Below, in pieces: positions 44,007 to 46,151 of a DNA stretch of 64,000 nt. Every line of letters begins with the position of its first letter. Position 1 is the first letter of the stretch. A program made the position numbers and the translations under genes. The notes under the pieces were generated by a model that saw nothing but the letters and a program-made list of their open reading frames with translations, ran no database searches and was not told where the DNA came from. The stretch spans positions 1 through 64,000 of the forward strand of contig JAHFRU010000005.1 in assembly GCA_023266115.1 (NCBI GenBank), read 5' to 3'. This DNA is from Gammaproteobacteria bacterium (GTDB lineage: Bacteria; Pseudomonadota; Gammaproteobacteria; VBWC01).

Positions 44007-44083
44007 GCGCCCGTAGCTCAGCTGGATAGAGTACCGCCCTCCGAAGGCGGTGGTCAGAGGTTCGAATCCTCTCGGGCGCGCCA
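44007..44083 (+). tRNA. tRNA-Arg (CCG)
   Basis: A 77-base cloverleaf: acceptor GCGCCCG pairs with CGGGCGC, the anticodon stem is CCGCC/GGCGG with loop CTCCGAA and anticodon CCG at 44041-44043, the T arm is AGAGG-TTCGAAT-CCTCT, and the 3' CCA is encoded. It reads the arginine codon CGG. Its last bases are repeated 119 bases downstream, a pattern left by integration at tRNA genes. Confidence 0.97.
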
Positions 44084-44186: not shown

Positions 44187-44201
44187 CCTCTCGGGCGCGC
44201 C
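44187..44201 (+). repeat. Duplicate of the tRNA-Arg 3' end (att-like)
   Basis: CCTCTCGGGCGCGCC matches bases 44068-44082 of tRNA-Arg exactly, 119 bases further on. It looks like an attachment-site duplication left by an integrative element, though no integrase gene is present. Between the copies is a hairpin CGAATGTC-TTATG-GACATTCG (44154-44174) flanked by CCGGA/TCCGG. Confidence 0.5.
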
Positions 44202-44285: not shown

Positions 44286-44320
44286 AACAAAAAACCCGCC
44301 TGGGTTTGCCAGGCGGGTTT
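44286..44320 (-). terminator. Intrinsic terminator of the Mms6/MamD-like gene
   Basis: A perfect 12-base stem, AAACCCGCCTGG (44292-44303) and CCAGGCGGGTTT (44309-44320), with a 5-base loop. On the minus strand it is followed by a T-rich run, 46 bases past the stop of the gene at 44366. On the plus strand it could also end the tRNA-Arg transcript. Confidence 0.85.
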
Positions 44321-44365: not shown

Positions 44366-45568
44366 TCAGTGTGCCGGCTGGAGTTCGTTGTCGGACTTGT
44401 GGGCCTCCTGGTCTTTCTTGTTGCGCACATAACCATAAATGCCGGCCGCGGCGAGCCCGCCAAGGATGACCGGGCCCCAAGCGCCCAAGCCCAGTCCCAG
44501 ACCCAGGCTCCAGCCGGTGCCTGACCAGATGGTGCCCGCTGCTACCGTTGTCTTCGCAGTGGCTGCCGCTGTTGTTGCGGTCGCGGCGCTTTTTCCGGCG
44601 ACGCACGCCTTGCCGGCAGATGTTGCCGCCGGGGTGGTCATCGCGGCATTCATCATCATCGGCTTGCCGGCCATGCCGCCCGCCGCCTTTGCTGTGGCAC
44701 CGGTTTTCATCGTTGCACCTGCCGCGGCCTTACCGCCAGCGGTCTTCGCCGCTGCCGCCGACGTGGCTGCTGCTGACTTGGCGGTCACCGTGACCGGCTT
44801 CAGAATGATCAGGTTCTTAGGACCGACGCCGGCCGCTATCGGCGCTTTGTTAACCGAGAACGTCTTGCCAATCAATGACGGGATCTGATTGGCGCCTTCC
44901 TGAACCTTCAGCATCATGACCTGATTGCCGCCCTGTCCTGCCGCAGCACCGGCGGGTTTCAGGAACAGCATATTGTTGGCATTGGCGCCGACCGGAGGCG
45001 CCATCACGGTGAACGCCTTGCCGCCGGCGGCCTTGGCCATTGCCGCCTGCTTGGCATTGGTGACCTCGATAAGAATCGAATTGGCACCCTGGATCTGTGT
45101 AATGGTGATGTCGGCTGCCGCTGCAGCACCGGCGGTCTTGACCGCCATCCCTGCCGCCCCTGCTTTCGCAGCCATGCCAGCCTTCGCAGCGGCGGCACCG
45201 CCCGCCTTGGCTGCGCCACCTTTCGCCGCTACACCAGCGGCGCCGGTTCCCGCGGCGCCGGCTGTTACAGCACCGGCAACCGGTTTGACCACTACCCATT
45301 TGCTCGCGCCGCCGCCGAGCATCAACGGCGAGTTGCCGATGGTGACGGTTTTACCGCCCATTGCGGCGACTGTTGCGGCCTGATTATTACCGGCCAGTTG
45401 CACAGCAATGGACTGGCCACCTGCTGTCGTTGGATTCAGGATCAGCATGTTCTTCATGCCGCCGCCTGCGACGGCCTTGCCGACGGTAAATGTCTTCCCC
45501 TGCGCGGCCGCGACCTGCGCGGCTTGCCTCGCGGTTTCGATCTTCAGCATGACTGTTTCAGTAACCAT
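44366..45568 (-). CDS. Mms6/MamD-like repeat protein with LG-rich transmembrane domain
   Basis: A 400-residue, Ala/Gly/Lys-rich protein. Four related units of about 43-45 residues (5-47, 53-97, 164-206, 217-259) share the pattern GKTFTVGKAP, a glycine-rich turn and a hydrophobic strand ending in KP or NP. Low-complexity Ala/Lys/Gly/Thr linkers lie at about 98-152 and 262-345. The C-terminus is GTIWSGTGW, then SLGLGLGLGAWGPVILG, a membrane helix to about 380, and a short polar tail. That tail domain closely matches the magnetosome proteins Mms6 and MamD (Mms7), where the LG-rich helix sits in the magnetosome membrane and the end binds iron or magnetite. Here the tail has only scattered acidic residues. 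The ribosome-binding site is GAGAGGAA and a terminator follows. No other mam or mms gene lies in the window. Confidence 0.82.
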   Translation of the reverse strand: MVTETVMLKIETARQAAQVAAAQGKTFTVGKAVAGGGMKNMLILNPTTAGGQSIAVQLAGNNQAATVAAMGGKTVTIGNSPLMLGGGASKWVVVKPVAGAVTAGAAGTGAAGVAAKGGAAKAGGAAAAKAGMAAKAGAAGMAVKTAGAAAAADITITQIQGANSILIEVTNAKQAAMAKAAGGKAFTVMAPPVGANANNMLFLKPAGAAAGQGGNQVMMLKVQEGANQIPSLIGKTFSVNKAPIAAGVGPKNLIILKPVTVTAKSAAATSAAAAKTAGGKAAAGATMKTGATAKAAGGMAGKPMMMNAAMTTPAATSAGKACVAGKSAATATTAAATAKTTVAAGTIWSGTGWSLGLGLGLGAWGPVILGGLAAAGIYGYVRNKKDQEAHKSDNELQPAH

Positions 45569-45929
45569 ATTGAATTCCTCTCGGTGTTATTATTAATTCC
45601 GGTTAACTCGCCACGCTTCTTTCGACATTTCGCGAACAGCAAGAAAATATGGCAATCCGATTACTCATGGAACCCGTCGAACAGGAATGCTCCCTACCGA
45701 AGAAACACTGTTCAGATCCGAATTCTCAGTCTTGTTAAGTTATTTCTTACCATATTCATCGGGCGTTGTCATATCTTAAATAAAGCACTATTTTCTTGAG
45801 GAATAATGCGGAATCGTTATTGTTGGTAAACAACCGGACGGAATGTGAGTTTGCTTACGCGATCAAATAAAAAAAGCGCGTATCCTATGGGTTGTTTTAT
45901 TCGTTTGCGAATTAAAATGCCTATCGTTT
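45569..45929. other. AT-rich upstream region of the Mms6/MamD-like gene
   Basis: This 360-base stretch is clearly more AT-rich than the surroundings and holds no credible gene. It must contain the promoter of the gene at 45568. Several TA-rich hexamers are present, but I could not single out a -35/-10 pair with good spacing. The base composition suggests regulatory or acquired DNA. Confidence 0.45.
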
Positions 45930-46151
45930 TCATTTGTGTGTCGGTTTTCGGTCAGCAGCCTGTGATTCGTCTTTACCGTGCGCCGATGAGGGGTGTTCGT
46001 CCGACAGCGCGGTTCCCGATGGACGCGCCGCGCGTGAGAATCGCCTTTTCACCAAAAAATAAAAAACAATAATTGCGATGACACCGCCGACCCACAGGAT
46101 CTCGATACCGAGTAAAATCGCCGCCATATGACCGTGCAACCAGTTTTCCAT
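45930..46151 (-). CDS. Small single-pass membrane protein, unknown function
   Basis: A 73-residue frame with one strong membrane helix (AAILLGIEILWVGGVIAIIVFYFLV, about residues 10-34), a basic stop-transfer KRRFSRAARP and a hydrophilic Ser/Lys/His-rich tail. It is not a family I recognise. It precedes the Mms6/MamD-like gene on the same strand with a 361-base AT-rich gap, so co-transcription is uncertain. The ribosome-binding site is weak. I list it because the membrane topology is clear and the region is otherwise empty. Confidence 0.45.
   Translation of the reverse strand: MENWLHGHMAAILLGIEILWVGGVIAIIVFYFLVKRRFSRAARPSGTALSDEHPSSAHGKDESQAADRKPTHK

Follow-up and report, generated by a model that had tools for sequence, protein, structure and literature searches.

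A probable mamD (mms7) gene located away from the magnetosome gene cluster of a gammaproteobacterium

The mamD locus and its product

The window analysed here is a stretch of 64,000 nt, namely positions 1-64000 of a contig of 153,882 bases (C14), from a 3.10-Mb MAG that consists of 46 contigs and is 98% complete. On its minus strand, an open reading frame of 400 aa with an ATG start (44366..45568) encodes a full-length protein of the MamD magnetosome family and is called mamD below. A likely ribosome-binding site, GAGAGGAA (45575..45582, minus strand), lies 6 nt before the ATG and has been conserved in a sister MAG (VBWC01, 'Gammaproteobacteria bacterium isolate X1_MaxBin.010', L015). On the 3' side there is an intrinsic terminator with a 12-bp stem, a loop of 5 nt and a T-rich tail on the minus strand (44292..44320, minus strand). 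The unit consists of mamD alone, with a ribosome-binding site and a terminator of its own, and is placed between a tRNA-Arg (CCG) gene detected by ARAGORN (44007..44083, plus strand), which is the next gene past the terminator, and an ORF for a 73-aa single-helix membrane protein (45930..46151, minus strand), which lies upstream on the same strand. The 73-aa ORF had no family match and is not assigned to the magnetosome system; its frame is maintained in the sister MAG. The GC3 of mamD is 0.70, the same as that of its neighbours. Searches of the genome with the MamD, Mms6, and MamK families returned nothing in the 64 kb besides mamD itself, in agreement with the earlier note, which had seen no other magnetosome gene in the window; the other mam genes were found on another contig (C35).

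The mamD product matched NF040916, the curated NCBIfam equivalog model for MamD (318 positions), with an E-value of 4.2e-61 and 206.9 bits (cut-off 100), and its whole length was covered; the profile search of the whole genome gave 207.9 bits. In detail, the whole-genome match consisted of three stretches, that is, repeats 1-2 (81 bits), the region of repeats 3-4 (70 bits), and the LG end (65 bits). Since repeats 1-2 score 81 bits by themselves, the Leu-Gly run is not the sole basis of the match, and the profile check that the earlier note had proposed thus found significant similarity outside that run. Against the Mms6 model (NF040917), the protein scored 55.2 bits where the cut-off is 200, and against the MamG model (NF040985) 36.3 bits where the cut-off is 100, both matches residing mainly in the LG end. 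The former score speaks against an identity as Mms6, and MamG is likewise under its curated cut-off. The kinship with both Mms6 and MamD/Mms7 claimed in the earlier note was therefore slightly too broad: the MamD part held, and the Mms6 part did not. NF040915, considered as a further magnetosome family, turned out to be a different family. Pfam had no model for the protein, its sole match (0.18) being due to chance, and the PDB contained no sequence relative.

The N-terminal part consists of four tandem repeat units, which were delimited with a repeat HMM: unit 1 (aa 5-48; 45425..45556), unit 2 (aa 52-98; 45275..45415), unit 3 (aa 164-208; 44945..45079), and unit 4 (aa 216-261; 44786..44923), all on the minus strand. 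The summed pairwise BLOSUM62 score of the four units was 400, compared with 137 +/- 12 (maximum 178) in 500 within-unit shuffles, and Ala accounts for 52% and 41% of the linker residues, which bears out the earlier description of four repeats of about 44 residues with Ala/Lys/Gly-rich linkers. Units 1-2 and units 3-4 form a duplicated pair with 29% identity. AF2 predicted strand-helix-strand-strand for each unit with modest confidence (beta-alpha-beta-beta for unit 1); the model of units 1-2 had a pLDDT of 66.9, and that of the full-length protein was poor (44.5). For the two-repeat module, Foldseek returned nothing at E <= 0.001 and the best Z of VIA-align was 5.5, and we therefore claim no fold relative.

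Downstream of the repeats, a domain composed of GTIWSGTGW, the LG repeat, and a membrane helix (aa 345-381; 44426..44536, minus strand) is also present in other MamDs. The hydropathy maximum, at aa 354-377, falls inside this LG domain, and the LG repeat overlaps the membrane helix as is typical of MamD. The C-terminus was read as GTIWSGTGWSLGLGLGLGAWGPVILGGLAAAGIYGYVRNKKDQEAHKSDNELQPAH, as the earlier note had described for this LG-domain protein. The protein ends in a short polar tail (aa 382-400; 44369..44425, minus strand) with 4 acidic residues out of 19. LG domain and adjoining helix are shared with Mms6, but the genome encodes a separate Mms6-like protein inside its magnetosome cluster, and the tail of that protein is more acidic, with 10 acidic residues in its last 31. 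The earlier note had likewise seen fewer acidic residues in the tail than in Mms6. With its four units, Ala/Lys linkers, and GTIW..LGLGLGLGAWGP followed by a membrane helix, the protein resembles the MamD (Mms7) proteins of Pseudomonadota, those of Magnetospirillum among them; it differs from these in its length of 400 aa, against the 318 positions of the model, and in the place of its gene outside the main cluster.

The magnetosome gene cluster and a possible role of MamD

Profile searches of the remaining genome, which the earlier note had suggested, located a magnetosome gene cluster on contig C35, at about 408.3 to 430.9 kb. The gene order is mamA (TPR), mamI, mamE, a gene for a 530-aa Ala/Lys-rich protein, mamK, a weak MamL match, mamM, mamN, mamO, mamP, a second mamA, mamQ, mamB, mamS, mamT, a third CDF transporter gene, mms6-like (248 aa), mamF-like, mamH, and a second mamI-like gene. 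MamI, MamK (481 bits, cut-off 400), MamM, MamN, MamO, MamB, MamT, and MamH scored above the curated cut-offs, and strong matches under the cut-offs were obtained for MamA (179/200), MamE (599/800), MamP (285/300), MamQ (239/250), and MamS (193/200). MamL, Mms6 (73.5/200), and MamF showed weak or local similarity only. MamE retains its protease motifs (H, D, and S), and CXXCH occurs in it three times. The MamF-like protein had no NCBIfam match; it gave a Pfam DUF4870 hint and resembles the gene that takes this place in other clusters, and from this hint and position we take it to be MamF-like. The 530-aa Ala/Lys/Pro-rich protein (L012:14077-15669, plus strand) matched neither Pfam nor NCBIfam; its position between mamE and mamK recalls that of MamJ in Magnetospirillum. 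The third CDF transporter (L004:7605-8753, plus strand), between mamT and the mms6-like gene, scored under the MamB and MamM cut-offs.

With a full-length MamD and a cluster on another contig of the same genome, the gene products point to a magnetotactic organism with a dispersed gene, the first of two possibilities raised in the earlier note. We consider that the window gene very probably encodes MamD (Mms7), a magnetosome membrane protein, away from the main cluster of a gammaproteobacterium that possesses such a cluster. A bona fide magnetosome gene can occur in a window that has no magnetosome cluster, and looking inside the cluster alone misses part of the magnetosome gene set.

A third LG-type protein, small (97 aa), is encoded on contig C34 (G000:C34:20133-20357; L003:1492-1785, minus strand), alone near an M23-type peptidase gene. 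It has GMGVGLASWTPIIIGG, scores under the cut-offs of MamD, MamG, and Mms6, and is conserved in both genomes (109 aa in the sister MAG; L036:9931-10260, plus strand). It is possibly another dispersed magnetosome gene.

In strain AMB-1, MamD reaches magnetosomes only under magnetite-forming conditions, a step that requires MamO and that MamN restrains, and the authors' model is that MamD keeps vesicles small until it is cleaved by MamE (PMC11332177). MamF-like proteins target MamD into the membrane (PMC11628618), and an altered expression level of mms7 alters crystal shape (PMC4945951). The mechanistic work on MamD comes from Alphaproteobacteria only, and for the present organism we consider genes alone. 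The genome encodes MamE, MamM, MamN, MamO, and a MamF-like protein, so that it could operate the same scheme. By analogy with Magnetospirillum, the C-terminal LG/helix region would insert MamD into the magnetosome membrane with the aid of the MamF-like protein; MamD would then restrain vesicle growth, thereby letting iron become concentrated and magnetite nucleate, and subsequent cleavage of MamD by the MamE protease would allow vesicle and crystal to grow. MamD may thus control crystal and membrane size in magnetic organelles, as it does in Magnetospirillum. Since mamD lies outside the cluster, its expression would be either constitutive or coordinated with that of the cluster in trans. Magnetosome clusters can also be silent (PMC9938234). 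As a natural case of MamD encoded apart from the cluster, this organism would be useful for asking whether the amount of MamD is by itself enough to set the size of crystals or vesicles.

The dispersed position of mamD

The usual, though not defining, place of mamD is in or near the cluster; here it is on another contig. In the sister MAG, the MamD protein is 97% identical over 400 aa and mamD lies in the same neighbourhood, and other contigs carry the cluster and the gene for the small LG protein, which gives the same three-place layout. Both assemblies are fragmented, the sister being a MAG, and, judging by the lengths of the contigs, mamD and the cluster lie no less than about 56 kb apart in the genome studied here and no less than about 98 kb apart in the sister. 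These two were the only genomes of the order in the search; both have mamD, and two genomes of one gammaproteobacterial order are now pointed to as having a magnetosome gene cluster. The tetranucleotide composition of the mamD contig correlates with that of the cluster contig (r 0.95), and other MamD-bearing genomes differ. This matching usage and the GC3 like that of the neighbours indicate neither mis-binning nor recent import. The kinase and the cytochrome b561 near mamD are 88% and 73% identical to their sister counterparts, compared with 97% for MamD, which suggests constraint on mamD.

With regard to origin rather than function, a working MamD could have arrived on a small island through tRNA-linked integration. 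The tRNA-Arg gene adjoins, and an exact 15-nt copy of its 3' end (CCTCTCGGGCGCGCC; 44187..44201, plus strand) lies 119 bp away, between the tRNA gene and mamD, 0.02 matches being expected in the window. However, the two copies do not flank mamD but share one side of it, none was found beyond it within the window, no integrase was noticed among the ORFs listed around mamD, and the GC3 of mamD is like that of the host. The neighbouring tRNA and the copy hint at a past integration, and we regard this origin as unlikely. More partial repeats are present in the same gap in the sister MAG.

Another explanation is that mamD is a decayed or unused relic left behind by a rearrangement of the cluster. 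Three gammaproteobacterial genomes of family f116 (G116, G231, G329) have the order mamD-mamF-mamH, whereas the genome studied here has mms6-like-mamF-mamH, so that the mms6-like gene fills the slot that mamD occupies there. Nevertheless, the reading frame is intact, the ribosome-binding site and terminator are present, and MamD is better conserved in the sister than the kinase and the cytochrome; a relic is therefore quite improbable, and we retain the reading of a MamD encoded away from the cluster.

Scattered positions of the mamCDFG genes were reported previously, so that finding mamD apart from the cluster has precedents. A known case is amb0400, the mamD-like gene of the AMB-1 magnetotaxis islet and a MamD homologue outside the main island (PMC2818848). 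The window mamD is also encoded outside the main cluster; unlike amb0400, which is an extra copy in an islet of 22 kb that also carries transposases and further mam-like genes, it stands alone and is the sole mamD found. More tentatively, this order-level lineage, represented by two genomes, might have split its size-control proteins (the four-repeat MamD and the small LG protein) off the cluster into two vertically kept sites with their own promoters, a scenario that we consider possible but rather doubtful. If it were true, the control of crystal size could have a regulation distinct from that of organelle formation.

MamD in other genomes

Profile searches with curated cut-offs over a class sample of 369 genomes found MamD above its cut-off in five, the genome studied here among them, and MamB was above its cut-off in the same five. 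In the phylum sample, MamB was found in 40 of the 41 MamD-positive genomes (above the cut-off in 39). The exception (G493, 80% complete) had no MamB match at the threshold used and was the sole candidate seen for MamD without mam genes. The earlier note's other possibility, a wider role of LG-domain scaffolds in compartment or mineral formation independent of magnetosomes, could draw on the solitary place of mamD among housekeeping genes with no other mam gene found in the 64 kb, but this co-occurrence, the cluster in the same genome, and the full-length MamD match including the repeats make it very improbable.

These results are consistent with a MamD that belongs to the magnetosome system. 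MamD and MamB share a contig in 28 of the 40 phylum-sample genomes, and MamD is only on another contig in the other 12, which are hard to read because the assemblies are fragmented. Two other gammaproteobacterial genomes allowed a judgement on this point (G116, G231), and both have mamD inside the cluster, on the contig that carries mamB. The MamDs of family f116 (G116, G231, G329) are of the same class and share the LG domain and an N-terminal repeat pair; they differ from the window protein in having two units and in being encoded directly upstream of mamF-mamH in all three genomes. The four-unit plan is that of MamDs of other classes in the phylum sample. The extracted MamDs from other classes and families are 260-354 aa long, compared with 400 aa in the window. 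In the MamD tree, the window copy is on a long branch with weak support, and a gammaproteobacterial clade was not rejected (p-AU 0.334).

Four gammaproteobacterial genomes of the class sample (G087, G211, G300, G312) had MamK above its cut-off and no MamO above its cut-off. These MamK-like actins are probably from outside magnetotactic bacteria, and MamK alone was thus discarded as an unsafe marker of magnetotaxis. Four genomes of the phylum sample (G448, G462, G466, G473) carry three or four MamD copies above the cut-off, distributed over several contigs.
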